The notes under the pieces were generated by a model. That model did not search any database and was not told the origin of the DNA. It worked only from the letters and a program-made list of their open reading frames with translations. The translations under genes were made by a program, and so were the position numbers. Below are positions 10,734 through 52,600 of a stretch of 64,000 bases of DNA, in pieces (the stretch's first letter is position 1; each line of letters opens with the position of its first letter). Source of the stretch: Mesaphorura yosii (taxonomy: Eukaryota > Arthropoda > Collembola > Poduromorpha > Tullbergiidae); contig WIXG01000391.1 of NCBI GenBank assembly GCA_009869945.1, positions 1 through 64,000 of the forward strand, written 5' to 3'.

Positions 10734-12542
10734 ATGGACCTTTTCAGCACTTCTGGCTGCTGGACAACAGTCATTTTATTGTGCCTGCTGCAGCAGAGCA
10801 GCACCGCTCCAGGAGAACAACCAAAGCAGCAGCACCAAAGGCATCTGCCCTCCGTCGACAAGGGTGAGAGTCTTTGTTTCCTATTGCTATGCGAGTCTAA
10901 AATATAACAATTTCGCATTTAAATTGATTTAACGCACGTCCACCATGCACTGTCGCTATGGAAAAACTGACTTGCATCACTCTCTGTAGGAGTCTTTGTC
11001 ATAACCGGCGTCCGGTCCTGCCGCTCCGGCTCGGGCTACTGCATCCTCGGTGGGGAGTGCACAGTGGATAATGAGTTTAGAGAAGATAGTCTAGGAGGGC
11101 ACTGCGATGGATTAAAGAAAGCTTTCACACCCAGGGCGAGCTTTGTTTGCTGTGAGCTGGCAACAAATAATAGCGAGGTTGCCACGACGGAGACCTCCGC
11201 CCCATCAACAGAAGTACCCCCCACAACAACGATCATCTATGAGGAGCGGACAGAGATAAGTGTTGAGGAGTCGATTACACTGCTGGCTGGAGGGGGGAAT
11301 GAGTGTGGCCTGGGCAAGGTAAAGATAACAAGGTGGCGTTGTGAACGAATCGAGCGCCTCACGAAGGCGCGTCGTGGGGTGCTCGAATCTTTGCTCCGCG
11401 GTAGCGACCGCCTGCGGCGGAAGACACTAACCCCCGCCCGCCTCCACCCAAACCCCTTCTATCCCCGTCTTTATTAAAGGGGGTTTTGACCTCCCCCCCC
11501 GCGGGTAACGGGCGCCTCGCCCACACATTAGTGGGGAAGGAGTCAGAACCCCCTTTAATGAGGAAGAGGGGCAGGCGGTTTCCAGTGTCTTACCGCCGAG
11601 GGCAGTCTTTTATAGCGGCGGGCGACGCCGCTACCGCGGAGAGAAGGATTCGAGCGCCCCAGGACCCGCCTTCATGAGATCCTCGATGCGTTCGATTCGT
11701 TGAGGACGCCACTCCCAAAATCATTCGTAGGACCCCTGCTGGACCGCCGCCATCGTCCGCCGCCCCCCGCACCCACCCTCCACCCCCTACCCAGATCCCG
11801 GCTCCTTCATCTGCACCGGCGCCGTCATCCACCCCTCCGTAATCCTATCAACCAGTACCTGCCTCGCCCGCATCCACGACCCTGAGCAGTACCAAATACT
11901 ATACAATTACAAGCACATCCCCCACCCTTCCCATAGCAGCCAAGAATTTCTAGAGGGGGCAGCCATAAAGAAGATGGTACAGCATGATTTATACTCCGGA
12001 GTCGGCCGCGGTCACGACATCGGCTTGATATTGGTACAGCAGCCCCCCTCTAATGAGTATTGCAGTGTGTGCCTTGGGAAATTAAAGGATATTGAGCAGA
12101 AATGTGGTGTGTCGGGGTATTCCCATCCAAATGAGGGTGAGCCACCAATTGTGCATTTGAAAACTCCCGCCTAAACATCCACTTTGAATACTTCCATAGC
12201 GACCGACTCGGATGGTTTACTGCACGAAGCGAGTCAAGTGCTACTCCCAAACTGCAGCCAAGGATTGTTATGTGGAGCGGGGAAAGAGTCGGCGGAGGCG
12301 TGTTTCGTAAGATTTTATACTTTGAATTGTGCGATCCCGTGCTAAATGATTGCATTTCGCAGTCCCCCCGTGACTCGGGCTCCCCACTCGCCTGCGCATC
12401 ATCAAATGGCCCTTCGTATTTGCAAGGACTCTTCAGCCACGGCTTCCACTGCGGCTCTGTGAAGTCACCCGTTTATTACACCGATTTGAATCACTATGGC
12501 AGTTGGATAGCGAGTAGGTTACAAGAGTTGCTACAGCTGTAG
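10734..12542 (+). CDS. Clip-domain serine protease homologue (catalytic His lost)
   Basis: Five exons (10734-10863, 10990-11318, 11731-12136, 12200-12306, 12363-12542) give 383 residues. A signal peptide is followed by one clip-like domain (CRSGSGYCILGGEC to VCC), a Thr-rich linker, NECGLGK, then a protease domain lacking the IVGG activation site. The His position reads STSTC instead of AAHC. The Asp motif is kept (HDIGLILV) and the Ser motif is RDSGSP. The loss of His makes it inactive, by a different route from its divergent neighbour. It ends with AATAAA at 12563-12568, about 20 bases after the stop. Intron 2 (11319-11730) is almost completely filled by an introner-like element. A non-catalytic cofactor of proteolytic cascades or adhesion is the likely role. 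Confidence 0.85.
11332..11713 (+). mobile_element. Introner-like foldback element 1
   Basis: The element begins GGTGGCGTTGTGAACGA and ends with the inverted match TCGTTGAGGACGCCACT. The inverted arms extend inwards (GCTCGAATCTTTGCTCCGCG against CGCGGAGAGAAGGATTCGAG), so it should fold into a long hairpin. It starts 13 bases after the intron begins (GT at 11319) and ends 17 bases before the exon at 11731, leaving almost no other intron sequence. Confidence 0.85.
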
Positions 12543-13758: not shown

Positions 13759-15353
13759 ATGAAGCTCCTACTCGTACTCGTCGCCATCACAACTGCTGCC
13801 GTCATGGTGAACGGTGAGTTTCTTTCTTCTCCGCTCTCGGGTTTCCTAATTATTTTACGTGTCTCCTGCAGGCCAGCAGCCAAACACTTCGAACACGGAG
13901 CAGCCCCGCTTCTTGGCCCTTCCCGATCCAGGTAAATCTGGTTTTCCTTTAACGAGAGCTCGTGTCCTCAATTCCTTCACAATAAACACACACCGCAATC
14001 CTCACAATCCCCGTCAGCATGTGTCAATCAAAAGTCACTTTTGTTGTCTTGGCACAAGGCGCGCGTGAACGCGCGTTACGCAATCTCGAGATGCTGTACG
14101 ACGGCTGCACGCTGCAGTGACACGATTTTCTCAATCGCGAATTGAGGACACGACAACGCTCGTCAACAGCAGCAGCGAATGCTTGTTGATTCTGTTATTG
14201 TCATGACGGCGGCGGCGCTGCCTCTGCAGCACGTCAGAAGCGCACGCTGCCCATTGAGCATACGGGGTCGCCATGGAGGCAGCTCTCCATGGCAACCTGT
14301 TCAAGGCTGTTGCTTTTCTGCAGCGGGCAACCACCCATTGAATTTAGGGCGGTTAGTGCGAGCTTCCTTCAAATGAATTTAATTCCCCTCTCGATTCTCT
14401 CTAGTCAAATGCTCCCGCCGCCCAAAAGAGTTTTTTTTTGATGGGCACTGGTATTTCTTCAGTGGAAACATCACCCGCTTTCGTGGCCAGGAAGTTGATT
14501 GGCTAGAAGCACGGAATAACTGCAGGGAGTACTGCATGGACACCGTCTCAATAGAGGGACAGGAGGAGAATGACATTATGCTGGGTTTATTAAGGGACCA
14601 TAACTTGAAGTACATCTGGACGAGTGGGAGACTATGTGATTTTAAGGGTGAGTATGATTTCTTTTTGTGCAATTTTTTTAGACATAAAAGCTACCCTGCT
14701 CGAAACATTTATAACCCTTTTCCTCCATGGCAACCAATGTCATTTTTTTCCTACTTTGCCTGTGCTTGCTAAAAAAACCGCGACAATATTTAATATTTAA
14801 ATAATATATAATAATAATATCTAATATAATATTTTAAAAAGTTCAATTTCCAATACACCGTGTCCCATGCCAACAGATTGAATGCAATTTTGGAACCTCT
14901 TTTAGTTCTTTTAAAAAATTTGTTTTCTAATACACCGTTTCCATGACAAATTCACGCAGGCTGCGCTGAGCGCTCCGACCTCCAGCCCGTCCACGTGAAC
15001 GGGTGGTTCTGGAGCGGGAGCGGGACGAAGATGGCTCCAACGAATCAGAAGCCGAAGGGGTGGGATTACCAGGTGAGAATTTAACCTTTTCTACAAAAGG
15101 GTAACCTAACTTCGCCCTTTAAATCAAACAGCCCTGGTCCCACACCGGCAACAACAAGCGCCCACAACCCGACAACGCTGAAGTCGAGATTAATGGGACT
15201 CCGGAGTCTTGCATGGCCGTTTTAAACAACGTTTACAAAGACGGTTTAAATTGGCATGATGTAGCTTGCTACCACCCAAAGCCTTTTGTTTGCGAGGACT
15301 CTGATGAACTATTGAAGTATGTGAGGGCGACACGGCCAGAGTTGCCTGTTTGA
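13759..15353 (+). CDS. Secreted C-type lectin 1
   Basis: Five exons (13759-13813, 13872-13931, 14405-14647, 14960-15072, 15132-15353) give 230 residues. A signal peptide (MKLLLVLVAITTAAVMVNG) precedes a short linker and one C-type lectin domain. It has the conserved arthropod pattern IWTSGRLCDF, VNGWFWSGSG, a QPDN calcium/sugar site, and WHDVAC in place of WND, with a final FVCED. QPD usually indicates galactose-type specificity, though WHD replaces the second calcium motif, so binding is uncertain. It is closely paralogous to the gene at 54989-56085. The AATAAA signal is at 15407-15412. Introns contain CCATGGCAAC motifs near 14280 and 14736. Confidence 0.92.
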
Positions 15354-15901: not shown

Positions 15902-18900
15902 ATGTACGACAAGATTGAACCCACTGCACCCCGTCTTAAACTCTTCATAGGCCAAATCCCCCGTCACCTACAGGAGCACGACATTCGGCCGCTATTTGAC
16001 CCCTACGGGGAGATACAAGAGTTGACTATACTGAAAGACAAGCTGACGGGGGTTCATAAGGGTTAGTCTCAGGTGATGACTTCTGAATTTCCCACTAATC
16101 TCAGCCAAATCTCTCTGCAGGTTGCGCCTTCTTAACCTATACTCATAATGAGTCCGCACTACAAGCCCAGTCCCAGCTCCATGATAAGATTGTTCTGCCG
16201 GGGGTGAGTGCTTTTCTTATTGCCATGTTTATTTGTGCAGTAGAATTGTTTACGTGAAGGTTGGAGAACTTTGCACCAAGTCTCGTTTCGCCCCGCCGCT
16301 TCTCCTCCGCACGCTTTAATCGTGTGCAATCGCTTTCCCCCTCTTCCGTCTCCATGACCACGCACGGCTTCTGCTTTCCCCTTCTCTCTCTCTCTCTGCT
16401 CGCTCGAGAACTGGCCCGAGAAATGCACGAGAGAACTCCAGGCACACGTAAATGTAAACAGCGACTCCCTACTCTTCTCCTTCTCCTTCCTGTTTATCGA
16501 TTCTCTCCGCTCTCCTTTGCGAAGCTTTGACTGGGAAAGCCCGTCGCACGCGCACTCAGAGACTCTCCGCACTTGTTGCTCTCCCGTCCGAAGCAGCGCC
16601 CAGCTTAGCACTCTCTCTTTATTAACAATTCTCACTAGTCCAGCTCCCCGACACAGTAAATCTGAGTTTCTCCTCACCTTGTTTAACTCCCGATTTTATC
16701 TCTGGTTTCTCGCACTCTTTCGTTGCCGTAGCAACCACCACAGTTTTCGCTTTTCTTCCTCCGTTCTTTTCTGCTGCTGTTGCCAAAGTAGTTTTTTTCG
16801 ATAAATGTCGATGATGCTCTCCAACTCGACCTCGACCCTCACTCAACCCGTTTCTGCATCGCAGATGAACCGTCCTTTACAAGTCAAGCCGGCCGACACG
16901 GAGCAGCACCATCGTGGGGGTGAGTCTGTCCCCGCCATTCGAATCACTCGAGTCACTCTAAAAAAAATATTCCCCTTTTTAAACAATAGAGGAGCGCAAG
17001 CTCTTCGTCGGGATGCTTAGTAAGCAGCAGAAGGAGGAGGACATTCGTGGACTCTTTGCCCCCTACGGAGCCATAGAGGAGTGTACTGTATTAAGGGGCC
17101 AGGACGGCGCCTCGAAAGGCTGCGCTTTCGTCAAGTTCAGCACGCATACAGAAGCCCAATCAGCTATTCAAGGGTTGCATGGGAGTCAGACGATGCAGGT
17201 GAGGTCTATTCACCCTCGAAACTTACATCGAAGACGGAGAACCTCGTTCCCATGAGAACTCATGGGCAGAATCCCTCTGAAACAAACTTTTTTTTACTGA
17301 CAATATTCTGGTATACGGCCCTGAAAAGCGATCGGCCATGGGAACCCGTGACCCCGAAACTTCTTAAAACTGAAGAACTTTTAAAATCGCAGGGCGCCTC
17401 TTCCTCTCTCGTCGTCAAGTTTGCTGATACAGAAAAGGAGAGACAACTCCGCCGGATGCAGCAAATGAGCTCGATGCTCAACCCATCAATGATTGGGCCG
17501 GGCACAACCCCCTGGCATCTCCACCCCGCAGCGCTCATGGCGGCCGCCGCTGCCGCAGCCGGGGGTGGTTACTACCAGCCGAATGGGGCGGCGGCAGCGG
17601 CTGCTGCAGCGGCGTTGGATTTGTATAGCAATGGAAGTGGAAGTGGCGGAGGGAGTGCGGGTGGACCGAGTAGTCAGGGTGAGTGTAGAATTTGGTTGGC
17701 ATGGAGCACTTTTATTTATCGATTGGCACGGGCATCGTTCCTTCACGTTGCCATGGTTTTTTTTAAAAATACTTTTTCGAATTAATTCCCTTGTTGCCAT
17801 TGTCGTTACCAATTACCATGGCAGCCAGGAAATATTTTTTAACATAAAGCCCGGGATACTTTAAATGTTTGCCTCACTTTTTTTTATGTTTTCTTGTTTT
17901 CTTTAAAGAGCCGGGGAAAAGTTTTAAAAGAGCACCGGAAAATTTAAAAATTGTCCATATTACGAAATCATGCCATGGAAGCCATTTTGAAGAGATTGTG
18001 AAATGTTAACCTCTATTTCTAAATTACAGCCTCCCCTGACCCCCGCCACGGCCACGGAGGAACCCCGCAGCATCACCACCCTACACACCATCACCATCCC
18101 GCTCCCGGTCACGAAATATTGTACGTCGACTTTCCCCCTCCTCCACAGAACCCGGCCGCGGCAGCAGCAGCAGCCGCAGCAGCAGCAGCTCTGCTAGACT
18201 ACCCATTCATATCTCCTCCAGGAGGGCCGATGATGCACGGACCAGGATTGAACGGGGGTAAGCCATGTGCTTTTAACAACAATCGTCATCGCTGTTTCCG
18301 TTGTCATGGTAACTCTCCGTTGTTCTCTCTCTCTTTTTTACACCGTTCTGTTTCCGCTCGATGTCGTTCGTTCGTCGTCGTCGTCGTTCTCTCTTTGGTG
18401 GTCACACGCATAAAATATACACGGTGGTCTTTTCCGCTTCTTTTTCTGCACTGGCTGGCGCTGCTTCGGTGGTTTTCGGTGTTGCTATGGCGTACTTTCT
18501 GTGGCTTTGCTCCGGCGGTCGAAGGCGCCTCGCTCTCCGGCCCGGACGGCTGCAACCTCTTCATCTATCATTTACCGCAGGAGTTCGGGGATGGTGAGCT
18601 GGCGGGGATGTTTCTTCCGTTTGGGAACGTACTTTCGGCGAAGGTGTTCATCGACCGGGCGACGAATCAGTCTAAATGCTTTGGTAAGAAGATAGCGAGG
18701 GAGCGTCGTGAACGAGTCGAGCGGCAGAGGACTGCCCGGGTACGATCCTCGGCCGCTCGAGTCCTTTGTTCCGCGGTAGCGGCGTGGCCCGCCGTTAGTA
18801 TAAACAGCCTTCGGTGGAGAAAACTACTGGCGCAAGCGCCGGAAATTCGCCGATCCCCTCACCCGCCCCCCCCCCCCCCGTCCATTCTGAAGGCATGGAC

Positions 18901-19406
18901 CAATGTGGGAACTCGTCAAATTCTGACCTCGCCCCCAATAATTTGTGGCCCTCGACCTCCGTTACGGAGCTCCAAAACTCTAGGCGGCCCGATAGTTTTC
19001 CTCAACAATTGTGGGCGAGGCGCGGAGGGAGCGAAGCGACCGAGTCCTCAACAGATGTGCGATTTAATAGAACTATGGTGGGAACGGTCGGCTCGCTCCG
19101 CGGACCTCCGGGCCCAAAAATCACGAAAAAATGAGATGCCCCAGAAAAAAATCGCCAAACAGCCCAAACCAAGCAAATCCCCCAATGATCAAGATTTCAT
19201 AGTCAGAATCTTAAAAGAAAGTCAAACCACCTAAAAAAATAATTGCGCCAAAATTTGAAATTTCTCCCACAGGCTTCGTTTCCTTCGACAATCCCACCTC
19301 CGCCCACTCCGCCATCCAATCGATGAACGGGTTCCAAATCGGGATGAAGCGTCTCAAAGTGCAGCTGAAACGTCCAAAGTGCGGTGGGGGGGAGAGGCCG
19401 TACTAA
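15902..19406 (+). CDS. CELF: CELF/Bruno-like RNA-binding protein
   Basis: Eight exons (15902-16061, 16121-16203, 16865-16919, 16990-17198, 17393-17678, 18030-18257, 18525-18683, 19273-19406) give 437 residues. RRM1 starts at [12 protein letters not shown] and RRM2 at [10 protein letters not shown]. After a linker with poly-Ala, Gly/Ser and His-rich runs comes RRM3 ([13 protein letters not shown], then GFVSFDN), ending in GERPY. This is the CELF3-6/Bruno architecture, a nuclear and cytoplasmic regulator of splicing and translation that binds GU-rich elements. The last intron (18684-19272) contains an introner-like element. The acceptor of exon 7 (GTCGAAG|GC) has a weak pyrimidine tract but is the one that keeps frame and homology. 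The upstream 15354-15901 holds the 3' end of the lectin gene and the 5' UTR. Confidence 0.92.
18300..18313. promoter_or_regulatory. RFX X-box-like palindrome in CELF intron
   Basis: GTTGTCATGGTAAC fits the X-box pattern (GTNRCC-AT-RGYAAC type), an inverted repeat of two RFX half-sites. It lies just inside an intron (from 18258). It is one of many related sites in the window. Confidence 0.55.
18697..19135 (+). mobile_element. Introner-like element 2 (CELF last intron)
   Basis: The 5' end reads GTAAGAAGATAGCGAGGGAG then GCGTCGTGAACGAGTCGAG, almost the same splice-site flank as the unrelated MFSD6 intron copy. The internal GGAGAAAACTACTGGCGCAA and GCGCGGAGGGAGCGAAG blocks are shared with other copies. 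No clean right-hand inverted repeat was found, so the right end is approximate. Confidence 0.7.
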
Positions 19407-20117: not shown

Positions 20118-20228
20118 TACACCTTTGCATTACAGAGATTCAACAACTACTTTTATTCATCCAGCTTTACAATTGAGGGGGATTCTTGATATGTTTCCTT
20201 AACAATTCTTAGAACATTTCTAAGTCGA

Positions 20229-23108
20229 CTAACGAATGAAGTATTGCTGCTGATCCGGTCCTCCGCCCTGCTGCTGCGGCATGGATTGCTGACCGAAAGG
20301 ATTCGTCACCGGCTGTCCCTCATCTAATTTACTGTTGCTTGCCACACGTGATAGATTGCTTCCCCCTCCTGGAACCCCATGGGGGGCAAGGTGGGAGCCT
20401 TCTTCAGTAGCGTACTGGTGGGGGTCTTCAGGGAGGGTCATGTCGAACCCGGAGCCTGCAATGCATTTTACACACGATATAAAACACATCACCCTTCAAA
20501 GTTCTCATAACAACTCACCCTTATGGTAAAAGTTAAAGAAAGCAAACACTCCCAACCCAATCAAGCAGACGAAACCATAAAGCCTAAATGTTGACACCGT
20601 TCCCCATGCGGTGACGAATATCCCCCCGACAACTGCGCCGAACCCCCTCCCTAACCCGTGGTGAAGGAAGGAGAGGGTGGACTGGGCAGGGGCCCGGAGT
20701 TCTGGGGGTGTGTTGTGGGTGAGGTACGAACAGCAGGCGGCCCAGACGGTGGCGTGGGTGAGACCTGGAATGAGTTGGAGGAGGCGGGAGTTTGAAATTA
20801 GCGTGTGCATTTTTTCAATTTGGCAGAAACAGAATTTTTTTTGGACCGGTGGTACATTTTTAAAAAATGTGTGTATAATTTCTCGGAGAAATAAATCAAG
20901 TTTTTCACAGTTGGCGGGTCATTAAAAAAAACTCACCCTGCACAAACTCAAACGGCAGGACCCACCACGGGTTCTTTAGAACCGTAATGTACCAGAATCT
21001 CAGAACATTGCACCCGAGCCCTATACACAAGACCTTCACATGCCCCAACTGGGTTATGAAGGTGGGGGCGAAGAAGTAGGCGAATATCTCCGAGATGTGG
21101 TTGATGACGGAGGCGAGCCCAAATAGTATAGGGGAACCGCCAATGTCCTGCGGGCCAAAAACAAATCAAATTCCCGGAGGAGGAACCCCCTCAAAAAGCC
21201 CCCTCAAGTTTTCTCACCTGCAGATGCCAGAAGAGAAATGAGAAGATCAATCCCATCCCCGTTCCCATGATCCACGCAATGAATAAGAATGCAATACAAT
21301 TCGGGGTCTTGAAGTGCCTAAACACAGTCACCCACTCTGGTAGTCTTCTATTCGTCTGTGCAAAGACCGTCGCGTGTATTGCTCCTTCAGGAGGAGGTGC
21401 GCCATCTGCACCATAACTCTGCTGTTGTTGCTGTGGCTTCTCATCCAGCTCTATTGTGGGTAGATCATCTGGAAATTGAGGGGGAGGGGGTTCTTGAACG
21501 GGGAGCTGCCAGGCGAGGAGTGTGGCTAGGCCCATCAATACTACGAATATTGCAAAGCAGACCGTGTAGTTCTTTTCCTGTGTGCATAATAGAAATTGGG
21601 ATTAGATTCTCAGGGATATATACCCACCCTTGGAAACAAGGTTTGAGCCCTGACCAATATTCTTATCTCACCTGCTCCATCGCGATGCACTTCCTACTGG
21701 GAAAAGTGCTATGGTCGAGAGCGATCCCCATGAAGAACATTGCAATCCCCCACCCGACAGAGCCAAACATCCTCTGGTGTCCGTACCTTGTGGTTGCCTC
21801 GTCTCCTAGGAAACTTAGAACTGCCCCGTCCGCGAGGAGGATAGCGGGGGAAGCGAGACCTTCCCCCATTATGACGAGGAGGAGCATGAGGATGAAGGCC
21901 TGTGGGAGTAAACGGGGGAAAAAATTCAAAACTTGAAAAAAAGGGAACTAGAAAGGGTAGGAATGCCCATAACAGAATTTCCGATTTTTTGGGGGAAAAA
22001 GTCGGGGAAATGGGAAGAGATTAACCTGGTGAAAATGAAAAAAAAGTTAATCCCAGGGAAAATTTTAAAAAATCAACCCCCATGAAACGGAAGAAAACCC
22101 TTAAATTAAAAAAAAAGTTGGAAACCAACCTTTGCCACATCGTCCTTCCTGAAGACCATCGAACTTAAGACAGGATTCACCCAGTCCTTATTCTTTGCCT
22201 CGTAGCCAATCGCGTAGTCGACGCGGATGGGGGAAATGCCTTTGGGAATGCGGGGGATGGCCCGCTTTAACCTTCTTCCGGAGGGTTGCTGGTCAAAGAG
22301 TTGGTTTCCCTCAGTGTCCAGGTCTTCCAATGCTGTTTCTTCAAAATTTTCCATATTTGCAAATCCTCCAGGGGGCTTTTCCAGGTTTTCCATCGGTTCC
22401 TCGAAAACGACCTTAAAATCCTCATTCGTTTCCCTCCTCGTCCTCCCCCCATAAACAATCCCCACCGCCTCCGGAGCAACGAGCATAACGTGACTGTCAT
22501 TGACCCTCTTCAGGCAAGCCACCGGTTCGGGCATCAGACTTCCCAAAGGAAAAGTGAATAGGATCCATGACAACAGACTGCAGATTAGCAAAGTCTTCGT
22601 CCTCCTCCGCTGCTCGGCGAATTGTAGAATGAATGGAGCAGAGACGTACTCGACGAGAGGCCGGATGCCAGTTAGAATACCGGTTTGGGCGGGGGAGAAT
22701 CCGTGCTGCTTGAAGAAGACCCCCATGAGGGGGAAGAGGGAGCCGAAGGCGGAGAAGAAGAAGAAGTAGAAGCCCTGTAGAGAAGAGTGGGTTTTAGTGG
22801 GGGGATTCTTTTTGATGCTACTAACGGCGGGCCACGCCGCTACTGCGGAGCAAAGGATTCGAGCGGCAGAGAACCACCAGGGGTGGTTCACTGCCGCTCG
22901 TTCACGACGCCCTCATCCATCTTCTTACCTTGGCGACGACCAACTCCCTCTGCAACCCACCCACCGCCACCTCTAAAAACTCAGACTTCCCCCGTATCTT
23001 CCCCGTACTGTCGACAGGTGCAGGGTAATTAGAAGGATCCACCTCCCCGGTCGCGTTCGGGTCGACATACGGCCGGGATGAAGTTGTAGTCTCAGTGTAG
23101 ACGTTCAT
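20229..23108 (-). CDS. MFSD6: Major facilitator superfamily transporter, MFSD6-like
   Basis: Seven exons (23108-22929, 22774-22130, 21899-21672, 21577-21218, 21147-20937, 20764-20519, 20455-20229) give 698 residues. A cytosolic N terminus precedes about twelve hydrophobic helices. The first helix block ends in the motif GILTGIRPLVEYVSAPF, typical of the MFSD6/MFS_1-like family, followed by RTKTLLICS. A long acidic and basic loop sits between the early helices and DYAIGYEAKN. The tail is Gln/Gly-rich. The substrate of this orphan family is unknown; a plasma or vesicle membrane location is likely. Intron 1 contains a shortened introner-like copy. The gene shares a divergent promoter region with ILRUN. 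Confidence 0.9.
22800..22912 (-). mobile_element. Introner-like element 3, short copy (MFSD6 intron 1)
   Basis: The intron is only 154 bases. On the minus strand it begins GTAAGAAGATGGATGAGGGC then GTCGTGAACGAG, and contains CTCGAATCCTTTGCTCCGCA plus a GTAGCGGCGTGGCCCGCC block. Both blocks are shared with copies in other genes. The 5' splice site flank matches that of the CELF copy. Confidence 0.75.
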
Positions 23109-24108
23109 TCTGCTGCCCTTCCCAAGAAAACCTTATTTCTGATTCACTCGCTGAAATCTCCCCACCTGAAGACTTTGACTCTAAAATCACCGGACGCTGA
23201 TTTCCCCCTCTGGAAACTTGGGCGTCTTTGAAACCACTGGAAACTCGACAATTCACAACGCTTATATTCTGGCGCAGTGCCCCTCTCTCGAGAAACGCTC
23301 TCCAAAAATGTGCAAGGGAATGGCTGGGCGGGTGTTGCCTCGCTTTCTCCTGCACTGAAATCGATCGTGCTGGCGAGCTGTGTAGAAACACCGAGACACA
23401 CACTCCGTTGTCATGGAGAAAGCGTGGAGTACCCGAGAGAAAGCCAGAAACGAAGAGAAGGGAGAGTGAAAGCAGAAGTAGCAGCGAGTACTGCCCGCAG
23501 TAGTGACAAAGTCCCCAAATGCAAGAGCAGACGAGGAGAGCGCGCCGATTCGAAAATTCACAACTGCAGCAGCAGGAAACCACAGCAGCAGCAAAAGTAA
23601 AGCAAAGAGAGAAAGGAGCACAAACCAACAACTTGCAGCGCAAAACAGGTAAAACAGCTGACTCGAAATTTAATCACGCAGTTAAATCAGCGAACAAAAT
23701 TAAAATCGTTCGTGACCCTAATTAAATTAAAATCCAATCGCTATTTGTGCTAAATTGTGATCTGCGCACTTTGTAGTCGAGTCGAGGGGCTAATTTTCTC
23801 AAGTTTTTGCAGTTTCTTGCAGAAGATTTGGGTGTGGAGTCTCTTTTAAGAGGGTGTCCGCTCTTCGAAGCCATCTCCGAGGAGTCTCCCCAGCAACCAT
23901 ACAAAATTTAAATCCTTTCGTAAGTCGCGTGCTAATCTCTCCATTGAGAATTGCCTAAACTCGAGTGCCAACAACGTAATAAACGTAAAATAAATGTTCT
24001 AAATTCGCAGGTTTGAAGAGTCTTCGTACAGTCCTTCGCATTCAGCAAGCTCCGAGGAAGAGAGGAAGTCTCCACAGCAACCAACACCTCACATTCAAAT
24101 ACTCTGTA
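23109..24108. promoter_or_regulatory. Divergent promoter region of MFSD6-like and ILRUN
   Basis: One kilobase lies between two start codons facing apart. A likely ILRUN 5' UTR intron runs from CAG|GTAAAA (23649) to TTCGCAG (24010). No TATA box was seen. A GTTGTCATGG half-palindrome is at about 23408. Confidence 0.5.
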
Positions 24109-25394: not shown

Positions 25395-26085
25395 TGCCAG
25401 GAGATTGAATACATATGGAAGTCGGAACGCTACCGAATTCGCAGAATTTTATTCGTACTCGTTCTTTTGTAATAAGCGTATGCAAAATGCTGAATCGCCG
25501 AATAAACAAAAGTGATGAATAATGAGCAATGTTCTTCTTGCTTTCCCCGTGTTTGCCCTGTCTTTGCTCTCGATTTCCACCGTCATCCCGTTGTCATCAC
25601 CACAACCCTCCCCCAGCTGAATCAACGTGGTGCTACGATAAACACACGTACTCCACCGACGGTTGATTCGGAGCTGGGCGAGGGTGGCCTTTTCTGCTGT
25701 CGTCTGCATTTCCGTCTGGGTGCCGACTTGGTCGCCTGGGTCCCCAAACTCTCCGCTGGACCAAACCGTTGAATAAAAACAAGGGCCAAGGTAACTCGAA
25801 CTGTGATACACGTAAGTGGCAAGTGAACCGGGGATTCGAGCAGTGTCGTCGCGAGTCAGAGTCACCATGGCCCCACCCCACTCTTTAAAAACTGCACTTT
25901 CAACTCTTAATTAACCTCGCAAAACCCACAAAAATTTACGATGACTGGGCAGCAGCTCTGGCTTTCCACGGCTCGGTCTCTCTCCCTCCAAATCGGAGAG
26001 CGTCACTCTTCACCGATGCTGCTATACAGAGAAGAGAATACGAAAGAGAGAGAGAGGGGGAACTCTGTTCGCGTCAGGTGGGAAG
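25395..26085. other. ILRUN 3' flank and gap before repeat B
   Basis: This holds the ILRUN 3' UTR with its AATAAA, a doubtful antisense frame (25449-25868), and about 200 bases with nothing recognised before repeat B copy 1. Confidence 0.35.
25449..25868 (-). CDS. Unrecognised antisense open frame, doubtful
   Basis: A 139-codon frame runs antisense across the 3' end of ILRUN and covers its poly(A) signal. It has no recognised motif, no signal peptide and no clear splice or promoter support. It may be chance. Confidence 0.2.
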   Translation of the reverse strand: MVTLTRDDTARIPGSLATYVYHSSSYLGPCFYSTVWSSGEFGDPGDQVGTQTEMQTTAEKATLAQLRINRRWSTCVYRSTTLIQLGEGCGDDNGMTVEIESKDRANTGKARRTLLIIHHFCLFGDSAFCIRLLQKNEYE

Positions 26086-26300
26086 GTTTGAAACTGTGCC
26101 TCCGCTCGCTGGCGGCTACAACGCCTCCGCTTCAATGCATTCATGTGTGCGGGATGCGCCTCCGTCTCAAAGACTGTACGTGCATAAGCTCTGGCTCTCG
26201 AGACAAAGAACAGTACGCTAAAAGCTTGCGATTCTCATCCACCCCGATTCTTGACGGCCCTGTCGTGTGTTTAACCACCCTCCAGAGACCCCTTCAGTGG
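26086..26300. repeat. Direct repeat B, copy 1
   Basis: About 215 bases beginning GTTTGAAACTGTGCCTCCGC and ending CCTTCAGTGG recur in the same orientation at 28025-28239. Copies differ by substitutions and small indels. GCCTCCGC occurs several times inside. Related fragments lie near 56350-56415. Confidence 0.85.
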
Positions 26301-26985: not shown

Positions 26986-28024
26986 TTTGAGATTTTGACT
27001 CTTCGATAGTATCCAGAAACAGGGATTCTACTTTGAGTATGTAAAAATGCTTGGCTTGGCTTGTCTGAAATGTGGTCAGTGATCTGTATTGACAAGTGAC
27101 TGAAATCAGACTGTGAAAATGAGTGTCCACGGCTGTCGTATTTATGTGAAATCTGGAGCATGATTCGTCATCTTATTCTCTCTTATTAAGTCATTGATTT
27201 CCTTATTGAATCATTGATTCACTGCTGCGGCTACACTTTTGATTCAGTGTTACTGGGTACCATTAAATGATTCACGAAGCAAAAGGTTGTCTTGATAAGG
27301 GGTTCATGGCCTTTCATTTTTTACCTGATAATAAGTGTTAGCACGATCATAATTCTGAGTCATTCTGATAAATTCAGATTTAATACTACTTGAAGTGTGT
27401 TGTAATAATTGTTTTAATTGGTTTAAACTTGTTCAAGGAGTTAATTTAGCTTCTGCTGGTGAAGTCGTCGTGTTAATCGCGCTAAAAGAAGGTAACGTTG
27501 CACTTTGTCACCAAATGTATGAAGTGCGATAAATTGAGATTGAGGTACATACAAACTGGTGTCCACGTCAATGATCCTTATTGCTTTTTTATGCTAATTA
27601 GTGTTAACTTACTTCTCATGTGAGTTTGTTACAAGGCTGCAACATGGCCTCAGGCTCCCTCGCCCAGATTTAGCATCTGCTGAACTGTATGATGTCATGT
27701 ATACGTGCTGGAACCTGAGTAGAGGCCCACATTTAAGGAGCTCAGGCAGTTGTTGGAGAAAATGGGGAAAGAATGCAGCTCATGATAGTATTACGAAGAT
27801 TGACGCAGTCATCTGTCACCTTACGAATAATATATTACTATTAATTAAACTGTTGATGAAAAGGTTTTCTCAGGGATTCTGCTACAAAGAAGCGGCAACA
27901 GTGGAAGAATTGCTGACATTTTGGAAACCCACAAGGTTAGTTAGGTTAGTTCAAAAGTTCAACAATTTTATTAAACGTTCTCCCACTGTGTTGAGATTGT
28001 ACACAAAGCAAAAAGTACAAAAAA
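26986..28024. other. AT-rich stretch between Cys-rich gene and repeat B copy 2
   Basis: This holds the 5' flank of the Cys-rich gene and about 900 bases with no gene seen. A short GGTTAGTTAGGTTAG string lies near 27935-27949. Confidence 0.4.
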
Positions 28025-28239
28025 GTTTGAAACTGTGCCTCCGCTCGCTGGCAGCTACAGCGCCTCCGTCTCAATGCATTCATGTTTGCGGGACGCGCCT
28101 CCGCCTCAAAGACTGTACAGTCTCTGGCTCTCGAGACAAAGAAACGCTACGCTAAAAGCTCTCATCCACCCCGATTCTTGACCTGGCCTGGCCGTCCGCT
28201 GTAACCACCCAGAAAGTCCTCCAGAGATCCCTTCAGTGG
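28025..28239. repeat. Direct repeat B, copy 2
   Basis: Same orientation as the copy at 26086-26300, with diverged positions throughout. The two copies enclose the AT-rich island with the Cys-rich gene. Confidence 0.85.
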
Positions 28240-30942: not shown

Positions 30943-32579
<1,637 letters not shown>

Positions 32580-38226: not shown

Positions 38227-40002
<1,776 letters not shown>

Positions 40003-42464: not shown

Positions 42465-44762
42465 TCGACTCTGGCTGCCGCAGACTGCTCGATTGCCCAG
42501 GCAACAGTTGCTGCTGCTGAACAAAGTATTGCTGTTGCTGTGGGAACCTCACAACCGCTGGCGGTGGCTGCTGCGTAGCATAAACGTATTGTGGCTGCTG
42601 GGTTCCATAAACAGGCTGCTGAAACCCCGCGGGGGCGTAATAGACTGGCTGGGGCTGTAACACGGGTGGGGGGTAAAAGAGAGGCTGTAGTGTGGGTGGA
42701 GCGGGTGGGAGGACTTCTGGGGGGCGAGCCGGGTCGAAATAGTATAATGAGCCGTCCTGGTTTCGGAGTGGTTGCCCGGTCTGCAAAAGAGAAGATGGAG
42801 TTTTTTTTAAATGTTGAGTTAGGTTAGGATGAAGGGTTTTTTAAAGGGGGGTTCTGAAACTGGAACTTTTAAACAGGGGGCTGGCTTTTTTCCATATACA
42901 TGGTTCTCAAGAGGGATAAATGCTTAATGGAGGTTTTTTTTTTAAAAACCAAGCTCGGGTTTTTTAATGGAGGTTTCTAAGCCGGCGTGTTTTCCAAGAG
43001 GGGGCCAAGGGGTTTTTTGCAGTCCCATAGTGGAAGCCAAGAATAAAAAGTAGCTCACCCCCGGCTCGATGATCATGACTCCGGCGGGGACTTGGCTAAG
43101 GTCCGTGACGGCCCAACAAACCACCTGCTGCGGCTGCTGCGGGGGCGGTGTGATGCAGTGCTCGAAACTGGTTGATTTGTAGCCGCTGGAGGCGGGGGAG
43201 ATTGAGGAGTTGTTCGTGGGGGTGCGGGCTGCAGTGATTAATGACTTGAATTGTTTGCACCCACCAAGGACAGTCCCAATAAAATTCTAGACTTACAAAA
43301 GGGACCCCTCCCGGGCACACCTCCACTAAAACTTCCCTGCTGAGACCAGCTCCTCTGGTAGCCCCCAAAAGAGTAGGACTTGGAGACGAAGGGGCGGGTG
43401 GTGACGGAGGAGGGCGCGTTGAACGACTCGACTTTTAGTAGGCGTGGGTTTGGGGAGAGTGTCGTCCAGGGAGGGGCGGCGCTCTGTCAAGAAGATTTGG
43501 GGGTGGCGTCGTGAACGAGTCGAGCGGCAGAGTACCGCCACGGGAGCGGTCTTTGGCCGCTCGAATCCTTCGCCCCGCCGCTAGAAAAGACCGCCTGCGG
43601 CGGAGAAAACTATTGGCGCAAGCGCCGGAGATCCCATTCCATACAGTCAGAGGAAGGGGCCGGACCCCGAGAGGGGGTCGGGTGAGGCGCTAGTTTTCTT
43701 CGCCGCAGACGGCCCGATCTGCATAACGGAGCACCGAAACTGAGCTGGATCCCATTAAAAAAACGGTCGGAGCGCTTCGCGGCCCTCCAGACCAAAAAAA
43801 ACATGAAAGTCACTATTTTATTTCTGGCCCTTCTGGCCTGTTTTCAAAATTTCCTCCGTGATTTTGAACTCGGGAAAATTGGATTCGGACTTGGCCTTCA
43901 TATTCAAGCAAAAAAGTGTTTGAGAAGCTCTATTTGGGGTTTCTGGTCGCCAAGTCCGAGTCCAAAGTCGGACATTTTGAAAATCCCGGGGGAAATCCCT
44001 CTTTAAACTGAAGGGAAACTCCATTGACATTCGAGTGTGAATGAGGCCTTTCTTTTCTGCATTGTTCCCTTTTTTAGAGTTCGGTTTGCCCCTTCATGTT
44101 ATTGAATTGTTTTCAAGATTTAATGCTTTGTCAATGGAAAAAGACAAAAAAACTAGGATTTTTCAAAGTCCCCCTATAAAAATAGCGCCAAGAAAAGAGT
44201 CGCCCAGAAATAAATGGCCAAACAGCCTAACCTAACCTAACCCAACCAAAGAAAATTTAATAAAGCCCCCATTAGAAAAGTCAAAAAAATGAGCCAAATC
44301 TCAAGGAATGATGGAAATTTCAAAAATTCATCTCACCTGTCCACCCACCCTCTCCAACTCCCTGAGCCCCCTCCCAGGCTGCACCGCCCCCTCTTTTTTC
44401 GCCACGACAACACTCGAATTCTCCAAATTATGTTCTAAACCATACCACCCCGCTATCCGATGGACGAGCATCCTCTGATACGAGGACATGGAGGGGAAGG
44501 CGAGTGATTGCTCGCTGTCTTTTAGAAACTGGTTCAAATCCGCTTCTATCCTCAGCATTAGATTTCTGTCTTTGGTGTTTTTAGATAGCGTTTGTAGCAA
44601 GAATTGTTCGAGGGGGGTCAGGGCTTCTGAATTGTCTTCTTGCTGTGGGGGTTCTGGTGTTGGTGCGGATGGTGGTGGGGTTGATGTGATTGCCGAGGAG
44701 CGGTGGAGGGAGGGGCGGCTCGGGGTTGGCGTGGCGACAATTGTTGATGCAGCGGTCGCCAT
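42460..44762 (-). CDS. R3HDM: R3H-domain protein, R3HDM/encore-like
   Basis: Four exons (44762-44337, 43483-43297, 43228-43059, 42780-42460) give 367 residues. The R3H domain covers LTPLEQFLLQTLSKN to the conserved RMLVHRIAGWYGLEHN, binding single-stranded nucleic acid. A Ser/Gly middle region (KSYSFGGYQRSW) follows. Then come VCWAVTDLSQVPAGVMII and TGQPLRNQDGSLYYFDP, a motif pair typical of R3HDM1/2 and Drosophila Encore. The C terminus is Gln/Pro/Tyr-rich. These proteins act in mRNA regulation; Encore controls germline mRNA localisation and proteolysis. At 367 residues it is much shorter than vertebrate members. Intron 1 (44336-43484) carries an introner-like element next to its acceptor. 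Confidence 0.88.
43502..43797. mobile_element. Introner-like element 6 (R3HDM intron 1)
   Basis: GGTGGCGTCGTGAACGAGTC at 43502 lies about 20 bases upstream of the gene's 3' splice site when read on the minus strand. Inner blocks GGAGAAAACTATTGGCGCAA and GCGCTTCGCGGCCCTCC match other copies. Here the conserved terminus abuts the acceptor rather than the donor, so the element is reversed relative to most copies. Confidence 0.8.
44226..44243. repeat. Interstitial telomere-like CCTAA string
   Basis: Three perfect CCTAA units plus a variant lie inside R3HDM intron 1. TTAGG is the ancestral arthropod telomere unit. Confidence 0.6.
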
Positions 44763-45561: not shown

Positions 45562-48500
45562 CTACAACTTTCCCACCGCGAATTTCGGCAATTTAAACCC
45601 GAATTTAGACTCGATCCCACTTAATATAGGGATTGCGACTTCATAGCCCCCAATGTGGTCTGGGTTGTGTGATTTGACGTCTGATAGCGTAGTAGCGGGG
45701 ACTTGGACCTCGGAACCGGTGGGGCGGCTGCAAACATGAAAATTGTTATGGCAACGAATTTTTGTAACTTGAAAAAATGTTTAAAAGACTCACGTCCCCC
45801 CAAAGTCCACATAGAAAAGTCTTTGTAAGATCTCGTAAGTTAGTAAAGTAACTCCAAATTGGGGTGATGATCTTAATACACGTGCACCTGCCCCCTTCCA
45901 GAACGCTTTCGGGCCCTCCTCCGCCATTATTTTTCTTGTGGCGTCCATGACTCCGGAGTAGGTTGTTTGCCCTGCGCGTGCGACGACCTGCGGGAGTTGT
46001 AAGGGGGATTTTTTTTTAAATTATTTTAAAATTATTATTCAAATTTAAAGAAAAAAATTAAAACCGGGGAACACCCCACCGGGAAACGGTTAACCTAACC
46101 CAACTCAAATAATCATTACAAAGTAATGAGAACGAAAGCACATCTCAAACTACGTGACTGAAAATTGCCACATTTAATATATGGTCGGTCACACAGCGGA
46201 GTAAATTTTGAAAAAGATCGGTAATTGTTCTAAGCTATAGGGGTATGTTGAAGCTCTATATTTCTCTGATCATGACCCATACAAAAAATTGTATGGAATC
46301 CATAAGCACATAAGATGTGCTAAAAAACCTAAACTAACCTGCAACCTCGTCTTGATAACATCCGCCGGGGTCACCAAACTCGCCGCCGGAACGCCTGCAA
46401 TCGCCCCGCTCACAAGAAGACTTATTGGGCTATTATACCCATTCTCATCCTGAAACTTGACTTTTGTATGGGCGTACGCTGGGAAGTAGATTGCGGAGAA
46501 GGGGACGTCCCTGAGGAAGCAGGCTTTCGCTCCCTGCAATTTTGAGGCTTATTAGAGGGGCCCCACTAAAAAGAGTAGCACTCACCTTGTAAAGCCCAAA
46601 GAACCCCAACTCCCTCACAACTCCCAGAGCACTAATCTTCCCGCCCGAACTCGCAATCTCCCCAGCAACCTGCAACCGGATCTTGACAATCTCCAGCGGG
46701 TTAGTGAAGACTACTTGGCTCGCCCCCGCGCAGCCCCCCGCAATCACTTCCCCGTACCACTTTATATTCCCATCTTGGTCCATTAATTTGTCTCTAACTA
46801 AATCGTTCATCGTCAATTTGATAGCTTTCTCGGGGGCCACTCCCATTAATTGGGGGAGCAAGCCTCTGTAGAGCCCAGTGAGTCCCTCGTGGCGGATGAC
46901 TTTGCGACAGCAATCCCAGCTGGATTTGTACATGAGTTCCCCTATGAAGGAGCCTGTCCGCTGGTTCTGCATGCGGGTTTTGACGAGGTCGATGGGGTAG
47001 ACGGCGGTGGCACCGACGGCTGTTGGGAAGATTCGTTGGCATGGTTAAGATTTGGGAAAAATGGGATCTTGGGATATTAACTCGTTTTGAAAAATAATTG
47101 TTATGGCAAAATCTCAGTCTTTTTAAAACGGCTGCCAGTGAAATTCAGAATGGTCGTTGTCTTGGTGAAATCTTTTTTAAAATCTTGGTTAAATGCAATT
47201 TTGGGGGTGAAATATTGTCATGACAACTCGTTTTGAAAAATTTGTTTGAAAATGAAGTGTATTTTTGAACTGATTTGGCTGTTCATCGCGATGTTTTGTC
47301 GTTTCCAGTATAAAAATAGAAAAATTGTCATGGTAAAAACTTGAAAAAATACGCGAGAAAACGTACCACCCGCCAGCGCCCCCAGCGTGAACCTGTACCC
47401 GGACTCGACGATCTGGATGAAGACCCCACGCTCTTCTGGGCTCTCGACTACTTTGAGGTCGGCGAGGCGGCGCGTGATCTGCTTAAAGTACTGCTCAGGG
47501 GCGATGACCTGCGATAGAACCGGGGATCAAAGAAAGGTGGACGGGCGGCTGAAAGTACTGCGCTCGAAGTTAACCTCACCTGTAAATCACTGTACACAAT
47601 CCTCCCCCCGGCCCCTCCATGGAGCAATCCAGCCAGGTGAAAGAGGATATCAACCTCGAGTGGAGTTACTTGGCTCATCATCTGCGCCGAATGGAGAAAC
47701 TCTTCTTTTGTGACCGGGGCAGAGCGAGAATTCGCCGTTGCTTGCAGGTAGATTTTCTTGACGAGCTCCATTTGATTAAGCAGGGAGTTGAAGGCGATGA
47801 AGAACGGGAAGGAGACGGTCGAGGAGGACGGGCAGGCCTATTTTGAAACAATTGTCGGTTTTGGACTTTTTTTTTCAAGATTCTGACTTTTGAAATTCTG
47901 ATGGGGGTTTCTTCGGGTTTGCTGGGGGCGAGGTCAGAACTCGATGAGTCCCCACATTGGTCCATACTTCCAGCATGGACTGTGGAGGCGGGTGAGGGGA
48001 TCGGTTGATCTCCGGCGCTTGCGCCAGTAGTTTTCGCCGCAGGCGGTCTTTTCTAGCGGCGGAGCGAAGGATTCGAGCGCCCGAGGACCGCTCCCCTGGC
48101 GGTTCTCTGCCGCTCGACTAATTTGCTCCGCCACCCTCGCTACACTTACCGCCACCAAATTATCCGCCACCGGCCTCGTAAGTAAATGTGACTTGATGTT
48201 CGTCATGATGTGGTAAAAGTCCATGGCCGAGATAAACCCCGTCCCGGTAGGGTCGTGGCGCCGGAACGCCTCCACCGCGTACTCCTCGTGGAAGTCCTGC
48301 GAGAGAAAGATGGTGTTATCAAACCCCGCAACTCATGTCGAAAACCCAATCTCGAGCATCTGCAAAATCCTGCCTTCAGTCCCCTCAACCCCTCTTACCT
48401 CGGCCTAGTCTAATCTAACCTAACGCACGTTTCTGTAGAGGAACCCCCTCCCTCGGCCCCCGCATACTCAACCTAACCTAACTTTGTCCAACTTGCCCAC

Positions 48501-49257
48501 AAAACCCTGCTGCCTAAGAAACAAACTTCAACCTTCGCAAAAACCCTCTACAAACGAGAACCCCCCAAAGATTAAAAAAAAAACTCACATGAAGAAACTG
48601 TGAAAACTCATTGTACCCAATCACCCTCCGCTTGTCCCTCCCAAAGTACAATCCAACAAACGCCCCATTCAAATCAAAGGGGATTTTAGCATGGAGCTCC
48701 GTATTCACTAAAACTTCAGCAAATTCCTCAAAGCTCACATGCCCCGTCCCCCTCGTGTCGAACAATTGAAAGGCAGTTTTATAAAGTGCATCCGGACTGC
48801 ATAGCAACCCTTCAAACGCTGCAAATTCAGGGAAAGAAATCAGCCCATCCTTCGAAGTGTCGATAATCCCGCCGAGGAGCTTAACAGATTTCTTATTGTA
48901 ATCCTCCGTAGAGAAGAGCCCGAGGAAGCGGCGAACGAAGTCTGAGGTTGTTATGAAATCCTCATTTTCTATGGTTACGGTGGCGTACTTGCGGAAGATG
49001 TCGTGGAGTTTCGAGGTGTTTGCTCTCTTCAGGTAGCCGGATTTCTGTTGGAGAAAATATTAATTTCAGAGGGTTGTCATGGCGATGGTGCACTCTAAAC
49101 AAGCTACCTCATACTCATGCTGGTTAACCGTTTTCGTTATCATTATTATTGTTACGGGCACACAAACACTCGGCTGCTAGTCAAACACTCAAATTACGAG
49201 GTTTCCGTGCTCGTCCGTAATCTGGTAGAACTCTTGCTTCTGGGTGGTTGTTGCCAT
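45562..49257 (-). CDS. aralar1: Aralar: calcium-regulated mitochondrial aspartate/glutamate carrier
   Basis: Nine exons (49257-49198, 49044-48589, 48296-48150, 47837-47580, 47508-47367, 47019-46586, 46533-46339, 45987-45794, 45727-45562) give 683 residues. The N-terminal half carries EF-hands ([39 protein letters not shown]) exposed to the intermembrane space. The C-terminal half has three mitochondrial carrier repeats with [18 protein letters not shown] and TPADVIKTR. It exchanges aspartate for glutamate in the malate-aspartate shuttle. Exon 1 encodes [20 protein letters not shown], and its ATG sits inside an X-box-like palindrome. The exon 1 donor (CTC|GTAATT) is the weakest join. Intron 3 contains an introner-like element. 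Confidence 0.95.
47930..48135 (-). mobile_element. Introner-like element 7 (aralar intron 3)
   Basis: On the minus strand the intron starts GTAAGTGTAGCGAGGGTGGC then GGAGCAAATTAGTCGAGCGG, placing the diverged terminus about 17 bases from the 5' splice site. The inner GATTCGAGCG..., TTTTCGCCGCAGGCGG and CGGCGCTTGCGCCAG blocks match the family. Confidence 0.7.
48410..48482. repeat. Two telomere-like CTAACCTAA strings (aralar intron 2)
   Basis: CTAATCTAACCTAACG at about 48410 and CAACCTAACCTAAC at about 48469 lie in the same intron. Confidence 0.5.
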
Positions 49258-49263: not shown

Positions 49264-49602
49264 GGAGTAATTCGGAGGGCCGCTGCTGCAATTGTTGACC
49301 AGCAACAATTCCGGGGAGATTCCAGCAGCGAGAGAGTACGCACACAGCTGACTACCGATTCAAAGAGTGGGTCCTCGGGTGAGAGTCACGTGCGAGTGGC
49401 GTGTTCGCTGCTTTGTGTGCATGCCTGCTGCAACTCGGAACAGCACCAGACCAACAACCAAAGTCGGGATTCGGGTGCAATTGTAAAATGAGAAAATACT
49501 CATGGCAACATGCTCATTTTATTTAAACTCTCTCAGCTCGGGGGCCGACGGAGTTTGCAAAATGAATCCAGTCCTTTCATCTTCATGGCAACAAAGACAA
49601 AT

Positions 49603-49608
49603 TTTATT
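49603..49608 (-). terminator. STAT poly(A) signal
   Basis: AATAAA lies only about 13 bases past the STAT stop codon, another very short 3' end. Confidence 0.65.
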
Positions 49609-49620
49609 TATTTAAGCTCT

Positions 49621-52600
49621 TTACTGCTTCTCCTGCTTAAAACCCCCGCTCCCAGCATCACCAGCCGACGCCCAGCTCTCAATCTGAAAGTTGAGGTCAA
49701 AGTCCTCGAGCCCAAAGTCGTCGTAGTTGGCCTCCATCGTCTCCATCGTCGAGAGAAGGTCACTGCGGAGCAGTAAAGAGTCCCCAATTTTTTCCCGCGT
49801 AAAATCATAAAAGCCGAAAAAGAATAGGATTTTTTTTCATTAAGTAAAGTCAAGTGTACTGGAAAAAATTGGGAGCCTCTCTCTCACTGCGCACCTTCTC
49901 TCGACGAGGCGGATTTTACAGTAAAAATCATCAAAGGAAAAAAACCGAAACGCTGCTTTATTCACATGAGTTGGAAAGGTTGTTTTAAAAAATCCTATTC
50001 TTTACGCCTCTCCCTAATAAGTAGAGTCTACCTTGGGACAAAGTCACCCATCGCAACGGCGGCCTGTTGGAGTACGTCCCCTGGGCTGGCTGGGTAGTTG
50101 CTGGCTGGCGTTGAGGGGGATGAGTAGGTGACGTCGGCGAGTCTGCGTATCAAAAAAAGTGTTTACCCTGGCGAGTCATGGTTTCTGAATGCCAACTGCT
50201 GCTAAAAGCTACAGCCATAGAAACCTTGAAATGGTGCTCACCCCGGAATGTGCGTCACGAGCATCGGCTTCACGTAGCCCTTCCCACTCGTCGGTTGAGA
50301 GTCGGGCAGTGGAGTGTAGTACTTGACGAAAGCAAGGTCCTTCTCCTTAGTAGGGTAGAGGTAGTGGAGATGGGAGATGTCGTGGATGCGGTCGGCGAGG
50401 GAGCGGGTTGCTAGGTCTTTTGCGGTGAAGGGGGCGAGGGAGTACACTTTTTGGTCTGCGAGATAGTTAGGTTAGGTTAGCTAAACCGTTTGTGGGGGTT
50501 TTCATAGTAAAAATACTTCCCGGCCCCCGCAAAGGAATCCCCCATTAAAAGGAAACGTACTCACCATTGTGAACCCACGCTATGGTAACCCCGCCCAACT
50601 CCGAGTCGCTGAACCTCAGCATAAAAGTCCCCGGAGGGCTCAAACTCAGCATATCCTCAGCTTGCTGCCTCCCAACGAACCCGAGAATGGACCCGTCAAC
50701 CCACGGCCCCCTCAAATGCTCCCTCGTCAGCTTCATTATGGCGTAGAACCACTCCCAGAAAGTGAACGTTTTGTCCGGGAGCGGGTCCTTGCAGAACTGT
50801 GACCAGGGGAGGAGGTCGTTTTGCGTTGAAGAGGGGGATCTGTTGATTTAGAAAAAAGTTTTTCTTTAGAAATTTTAGTTGCCATGATGATTTTTGGTCA
50901 GTTGTTTGGGTTTTGGGTGCCTTGCGGATGTTTTTTACACCGCCTTTTTAAAAAAATTGGGTCTCTGGAACTTTGAAATTTTCATCATTGAGTGCATTTC
51001 TTTCGTTTTGGGCTGTTTTTTCCTGGAACTTTGAATTTTTTTGCATTCTGGAACTTTGTTTTTTTTTCATAGGAAGTTTAATTTGGGCGATTTTGTTTCT
51101 GGGACTTCCCAGCTGTAACGGAGTGGAAGATCCGGCACTTGCGCCGGTAGTCTTTTATGGCGACGGGCTCCCCGTATATCCTCACCTGAACCCCTTCTCC
51201 CCCAAAAACCTCAAATTCTCCTCCGTCAACGCCCGCCCCGTCATCGCCTTGAACTTAACATTGAGAGCAGCTCCCACCCTGTACCACTGCACCCTCTCCG
51301 GAACCTGGAACGGCATCCTCCCCGGCTCCCCGAAAGCGTTGTCCCAAGTAACCGTAGCCCACGCATGAGGCTCCTGATTCCCATGCACTATGACAACAAC
51401 TGGGAGGGAGAGCGTCCAGATCTTGAAAATCAACTCTTTTTCCCCCACGGTGAACTGACACTGAAAGTGGAGACAGAATTTCTCGTCCATGACGGACTCG
51501 GTGCCTTTCTTCTCTGTTCGCTTGATTCTCTTGAGTTGCATGTTTCTGCGGGATTTAAAAATGGTCAATAGTAGTAGAGAAGCCTATGAAAAAGGTGATC
51601 CACTTACCTAAAGTGCACGCTCAGATGCTTAGTCCCCTGGTGGTACTCCATCGTCCCAGTATTATTCAGAATCTCCCCACTCGTCTCGCAGGGTTTCTCT
51701 CCTTTATCGTTCCTTAGTAGAGAATTTGCTTGGGACTCTGATATAATCGCTACTCTCACTTGAGGAGGAGTCATGTGGACATTCAACCTCCCTCCTACGA
51801 GAAGGCGGACGGTGGAGACGAAGCGGGTGTTTGTCTTCATCACTTGTGGGGGTTGTTTTTCCACTATGAAGGTTGAGGTGACGAGGGAGGAGAGGAGTTG
51901 GGTGACCTGGAAGATAGATGGGGGGCGTCGTGAACGAGTCGAGCGACTTGGGGCTAGGCCACTCGACTCCTTCGCTCTGCGGTAGCGGTGTGGCCCGCCT
52001 TTGGCGATACTGAAAACCGCCAAGACACTAACCCCCTCCCCCCGCGGGGAAGGAGCGCCGGTAGTTTTCTCCGCCGAAGGCCAAGCGGTGGGCCACGCCG
52101 CTACCAGCGGAGGTGGCGAGGCCCCGAGCCCCCGCTTTAGTGGGGCTTGAGGTCCTCGGTCTCCGTTACGGGCCCACAAAAGTCGGATGGGAAAATTAGT
52201 CAAACAAATCTTAGATTCCCAATGAAAAAAAGCAAGCCCTAGGGCATAAAACAAGTTTCCATGTCACTTCAAAAAATTACGCAAACAGCACAAATCAAAG
52301 GAATCCCCAATAATCGAACCAAGTCCCAAATTTGAAAAAAAAATTCAAATTTCCCAGAATAAATCCCAACAAAAAAACTCACCTTCTCCTGCAACCCCCT
52401 AAGCCCATCCTGAACTCCGCCCTCTCCAAACCCTGGAATCCCGCCCCTCAACCTCTCCGCCTCTTTCAATTGATGTCTATTGTGCCAAATCAATTCAGCC
52501 AGGTCTTCGCACCAGCACTGGAGTGTGTCAAGGTTGTTGTTGAGGGGGGCTCCGTTCCCAGCGAGTTGTTGCTCTCGTTTCCACCTGCGGGAGAGATTTG

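Follow-up and report, generated by a model that had tools for sequence, protein, structure and literature searches.

A splice-anchored family of foldback repeats in ten introns of a springtail contig, one of them at an intron position shared with human SLC25A13

One repeat family occupies ten introns in eight genes of different families within a 64-kb window (the whole stretch of DNA analysed, 64,000 nucleotides). Its copies lie in introns, in either orientation, with an end anchored at a splice site; four introns are almost completely filled, and the copy in the aralar gene stands at an intron position shared with human. The explanation we favour, tentatively and with a probability of about 0.48, is a foldback transposon, non-autonomous, whose insertions would fall on splice junctions and supply a splice signal, at least sometimes taking over introns that already existed.

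Introns were predicted from continuity of the protein in three-frame translations, each predicted junction then being placed to the base. Altogether 31 introns were modelled (10 with an element, 21 without), amounting to 12.7% of the window, and further ones exist, CELF having some towards its 5′ end, for instance. The family's hosts are a protease homologue, CELF, MFSD6, Rab11, SCYL2, R3HDM, aralar and STAT, with Rab11 and STAT carrying it in two introns each. Matches to solved structures back the identities of the aralar, Rab11, CELF and STAT5-like genes, and the Pfam domains found comprise trypsin, R3H, mitochondrial carrier, MFS, STAT coiled-coil and RRM. The protein kinase score of the SCYL2 stretch fell slightly under the curated Pfam cut-off, and six of ten stretches gave no match in one Pfam run. 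The names MFSD6, SCYL2 and R3HDM were taken from a first-pass annotation of this DNA; the genes are referred to below as the MFS gene, the kinase-like gene and the R3H-domain gene. That annotation spoke of seven genes and listed eight, and the family is indeed present in an intron of all eight; two degenerate copies, in Rab11 (31868-32424) and STAT (51185-50840), come in addition to its list.

Both ends of the element lie at splice sites in E1, a foldback in the intron of the serine-protease homologue (11319-11730, plus strand, 412 nt), and in E4, in the Rab11 intron that separates ITSA from YY in phase 2 (31290-31592, plus strand, 303 nt). The head is at the donor in six introns. Four of these hold better-preserved copies: E2 in CELF, inside the G of KCFGF, phase 1 (18684-19272, plus strand, 589 nt); E3, a truncated element in the MFS gene (22775-22928, minus strand, 154 nt); E5 in the kinase-like gene (36042-36494, plus strand, 453 nt); and E7 in aralar, between LVA and A, phase 0 (47838-48149, minus strand, 312 nt). 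The other two hold the degenerate copies, whose head side is at the donor: E4b, a long copy in the next Rab11 intron (31868-32424, plus strand; nhmmer 48.0 bits, E 3.1e-14, from 31868), and E9 in the next STAT intron (50840-51185, minus strand; 23.3 bits, E 1.2e-6, from 51185). Finally, E6 in the R3H-domain gene (43484-44336, minus strand, 853 nt) and E8 in STAT (51907-52382, minus strand, 476 nt) contain antisense elements with the head at the acceptor.

A search with GGTGGCGTCGTGAACGAG, allowing up to three mismatches, gave seven matches in the window against a mean of 0.02 in 100 shuffles. An nhmmer profile was built from 12 heads of the family copies themselves. All 18 matches above the inclusion threshold were inside the ten introns, as were seven of the ten matches below it, the other three having E values of 0.95, 3.8 and 9.2. 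Because the profile derives from these very copies, only the absence of matches elsewhere is informative, not their presence in the introns. When complete element introns were used in BLAST, 160 of 163 matches at E <=0.05 fell in the ten introns; the three outside matches (at 23821-23841 and 61466-61493) were 21-26 nt long, with E values of 0.018-0.045. The earlier claim that the family occurs in introns only is therefore borne out in the window, neither nhmmer nor BLAST revealing a significant copy outside. Both orientations relative to the host genes occur. Beyond the window, an exact 22-base head motif had no match in viral contigs and one in prokaryote genomes, in a Rhodocyclaceae genome. 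The latter comprises 25 bases identical to E6 and overlaps open reading frames as long as 507 codons, and no other stretch of the 8,000-base locus matched the elements at E <=1. We take it as a probable chance match.

The window holds other repeats as well. The palindrome GTTGCCATGGCAAC, which resembles the RFX X-box, occurs at 12 sites with up to two mismatches, where 0.23 are expected; the sites include 53231-53244, 18300-18313, 35653-35666 and 61143-61156, and modelled introns contain at least two of them (35653 and 53231). A direct repeat some 650 nt long (606-1242 and 3563-4223, 81% identical) and a second dispersed repeat of about 220 nt (26083-26300 and 28022-28239, 80% identical) are both unlike the element. 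Two further similar pairs lie 40 kb apart, 14491-14650 with 55352-55512 and 15204-15323 with 55936-56055; the first is within reading frames of similar protein text, and the sequences suggest that these pairs may be duplicated genes.

The anchoring at splice sites is tight in the eight better-preserved copies, in which family sequence at the head end begins 0-7 nt from the splice site, with E4 as the exception (11 nt from the donor, 0 from the acceptor). As measured by BLAST, the family starts 3 nt from the donor in E1, 0 in E2 and E3, 2 in E5 and 7 in E7; in the antisense copies E6 and E8 its distance from the acceptor is 5 and 3 nt. In the degenerate E4b and E9 it starts 49 and 17 nt from the donor; these two reach the donor only through the nhmmer profile, which was built from them, and not by BLAST. 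The distance between the far end and the other splice site is 0 nt in E1 and E4, 19 in E8, 23 in E7, 44 in E3, 46 in E2, 60 in E4b, 93 in E6, 99 in E9 and 152 in E5. Of the E1, E4, E7 and E8 introns, some 30 nt at most thus lie beyond the family span (7 + 23 nt in E7), whereas the shortest modelled intron has 52 nt; inside that span these four are 60-84% covered. If similarity is required within 10 intronic bases of the boundary, the cut-off of PMC9860276, both ends qualify in one of the ten introns (E1), the acceptor alone in E4, whose donor misses by 1 nt, one end in E2, E3, E5, E6, E7 and E8, and neither in E4b and E9; our count uses BLAST coverage and approximates the pairwise rule of that study. 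The first-pass annotation had placed the conserved terminus 16-20 nt from the 5′ splice site or about 20 nt from the 3′ one. Proximity holds, with slightly smaller figures: the GGTGGCG core lies 13-15 nt from the donor GT and 14-18 nt away on the acceptor side (measured partly by eye). Most of the stretch between splice site and core also belongs to the family, being GAAGATAG-like, which means that removing E1 or E4 leaves less than the 30 nt or so that had been claimed. Both ends of these two elements are kept, as had been stated, coverage starting 3 and 11 nt from the donor and reaching the acceptor.

Head-side donors begin with GTAA in 5 of 8 cases, against 2 of the 21 element-less introns (one-sided Fisher p 0.008, for a comparison chosen post hoc). 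This excess suggests that the splice donor belongs to the element. A donor score for GAAGATAG (p 0.0006) was rejected as evidence on grounds of circularity, the motif having been picked from these copies; at acceptors the same score fell short of significance (p 0.09).

The head has the approximate form (GT)AAGAAGATAG-nn-GGTGGCGTCGTGAACGAGTCGAGCG and is followed by nested hairpins. Read one way it is GTAAGAAGATAG-like; read the other way it is a pyrimidine tract, CTATCTTC. It can thereby serve either as a donor or as the sequence leading up to an acceptor. Longer copies continue past the hairpins into a middle part and then an A-rich tail. The tails are part of the family: compared in head-to-tail orientation they give a mean z of 3.2 (21 pairs) against 0.7 in the opposite orientation, and a mean z of 0.13 against 10 of the 21 element-less introns in both orientations (140 comparisons, best z 4.0). 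Several of the pairs taken individually, E8-E6 and E7-E9 among them, show no match. Terminal inverted repeats are present in E1 (28-nt arms, 82%) and E4 (23-nt arms, 96%) and absent from E2, E6 and E8, the other copies examined for them. The predicted fold of E1 (412 nt) has -246.7 kcal/mol and a z of -17.0 (-13.4 with fewer shuffles), that of E4 (303 nt) -159.5 kcal/mol and a z of -6.3 (-8.6 with fewer shuffles). In the run with fewer shuffles the element introns range from -13.4 (E1) to -0.1 (E9), with E2 at -0.8; the 14 of 21 element-less introns that were folded range from -2.0 to 0.9. End-to-end pairing was discarded as a general feature of the introns, being strong in E1 and E4 and absent from E2, E5, E7 and E9, while ordinary introns of short length often show much of it. 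Identity as a SINE was likewise rejected: an A-rich tail is present, but the head appears not to derive from a small RNA, as ARAGORN (bacterial code) found no tRNA and Rfam gave no match at the gathering score.

The age of one element intron can be assessed. The available text of PMC12041640 gives Ala206 as the first residue altered by two variants of SLC25A13 (citrin), c.615+5G>A and c.615+1G>C, which places the end of human exon 6 after codon 205. Five other variants from the same text (at Arg184, Gln214, Ser225, Asn229 and Glu252) land on the right residues of the aligned citrin sequence and so fix its numbering. The window's aralar gene reads NLVA before the intron and ACPSSS after it; the intron follows the codon aligned to Ala205, in phase 0, and the alignment before it is free of gaps. 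E7 therefore occupies the position of human SLC25A13 intron 6, in identical codon and phase. The element-less aralar intron upstream (48297-48588, minus strand), between QFLH and D, aligns without gaps to human residues 156 and 157, that is, to the c.468/469 junction found in the same source. With four human junctions seen there (c.468, 615, 754 and 848) and about 400 sites, a random coincidence would have a likelihood of roughly 1 in 100, a rough estimate. A third aralar intron, 47579-47509, is 71 nt long and has neither an element nor a human counterpart among the SLC25A13 junctions seen; the nearest of those junctions below its position are c.754/755 and c.848/849, at both of which the window gene has no intron. 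It is possibly lineage-specific. E7 is either an ancient intron that was taken over or a place where an introner landed by parallel gain; the fungal introner-like elements of PMC4457414 raise an equivalent question.

The neighbouring protease-like gene, which according to Pfam has masquerade-type CLIP domains, as befits an arthropod, has no break in its coding sequence at the site of E1; since this is a distant paralogue, its empty site is a weak point in favour of intron creation. Human RAB11A probably has an intron between ITSA and YY too; no human intron positions for Rab11 or STAT were found in the literature searched. In seven other Rab subfamilies, 87% of 400 introns are at conserved positions according to the part of PMC3504004 that was available, which hints, by analogy only, that E4 and E4b may be old. 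The first-pass annotation had held that insertion created the introns and had named the same positions held by unrelated introns in distant arthropods as the finding to look for against this. The one copy that can be dated (E7; one of ten introns was comparable) is at a human position, and this single comparison, with SLC25A13, goes against creation in the spirit of that proposal.

On the reading that we favour, a DNA-transposon-like, non-autonomous element with inverted repeats would spread by DNA transposition. Insertion at or beside splice junctions would be favoured, or would simply be what survives; the element end would then act as a splice signal and, once the former sequence was lost, the intron would become the element. 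E7 would exemplify the takeover of an old intron position. It is almost wholly element yet stands at a human position, as does its element-less aralar neighbour. Takeover would require an extra step in which the former intron was lost almost entirely, and no remnant of a native intron or target duplication marking insertion into an old one was identified. E1 and E4 also speak against it: with a splice site at each end and hardly any other sequence remaining, they resemble plain introners. The close rival, which has a sizeable chance of being right, is that of classical introners, whose insertion into exons would each time have made a new intron, E7 being a parallel gain at a position also used in human. 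Splice-site ends in both orientations, inverted repeats, unrelated hosts, the near-complete occupancy of E1, E4, E7 and E8 and the uninterrupted E1 site of the distant paralogue are all consistent with it, and parallel gains are reported for fungal introner-like elements in the available text of PMC4457414. The agreement of E7 with the human position and phase, estimated at about 1 in 100 by chance, argues against it. So does the lack of a convincing target-site duplication at the ten element introns, although many introner families are without one: 49 of 130 assessed had them, according to the available text of PMC9860276. Direct repeats across the junctions average 3.0 nt in the ten element introns and 2.3 nt in the 21 others; the longest, 5 nt at E6, is equalled in 3 of the 21 ordinary introns.

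The remaining probability is shared by ordinary insertion, spread at the RNA level and something else. An ordinary miniature transposon might have inserted at random and survived only in the introns of a compact genome, short introns accounting for the proximity to splice sites. Six of the 21 element-less introns are indeed only 52-71 nt, so that an insertion into one of them would lie near an edge, and E2 and E3 retain 46 and 44 nt on the acceptor side. Against this, the eight better-preserved copies, whichever way they are oriented, adjoin the splice site with the head rather than the tail; their other end lies at least 19 nt off except in the double-headed E1 and E4; the remainders of E1, E4, E7 and E8 are too small for an intron; and the head-side donors are unlike those of other introns. 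We regard random insertion as improbable. Spread at the RNA level would mean that an excised intron is reverse-spliced into transcripts and then copied back. The several copies that start or end at a splice site would suit it, but reverse splicing is not expected to give copies antisense to their genes, such as E6 and E8, and this route is very improbable indeed.

A stronger form of the takeover reading, which we consider less likely than not, is that a transposon targeting splice junctions re-seeds ancient introns, keeping the position, swapping the sequence and bringing ends with splice signals for both directions. If so, such intron turnover would be invisible to comparisons of position alone, and studies of intron history would have to separate parallel gain from replacement. 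More generally, if a mobile element were replacing old introns, a shared position would no longer imply that the intron itself is conserved. A family anchored in this way in a compact arthropod-like genome would offer a clean setting for asking whether elements make introns or take over old ones.

Foldback transposons and MITEs are short and have inverted repeats with nested hairpins and several truncated forms, as does the family described here; the latter differs from them in being found in introns only, in its splice anchoring and in showing no convincing target duplication. A 2025 study is said to describe horizontally transmitted introners. Much of what the first-pass annotation took as introner-like stands, namely dispersal over unrelated genes, the inverted-repeat ends of E1 and E4, occurrence in either orientation, termini lying at splice sites and several nearly filled introns; the creation of introns is not supported. 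The anatomy is introner-like, and yet we do not file the family as an introner, because the term claims that insertion makes the intron, which was not borne out in the one case tested. Introners as described in the available text of PMC9860276 share with the family similar introns dispersed in unrelated genes, similarity extending to the splice boundaries, either orientation, inverted repeats in part of the families and a genic bias (here, in the window). They differ from it in that here the far end is 19-152 nt from the other splice site, except in E1 and E4, one position (E7) is ancient, and there is no convincing target duplication. Among animals and land plants, the same text finds introners in just two groups, each of which is animal (Gozashti et al. 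2022, PMC9860276). Fungal introner-like elements resemble the family in that members are found at positions of unrelated regular introns in distant species (PMC4457414, as far as available); foldbacks, inverted ends and both orientations are features of the window family. We also count as a likeness the idiosyncratic introns of the copepod Eurytemora affinis, many of which are unique to one crustacean lineage according to the available text of PMC5714493; GA and GG donors make up about 12% of introns there, whereas the ten modelled donors of the window family are GT.
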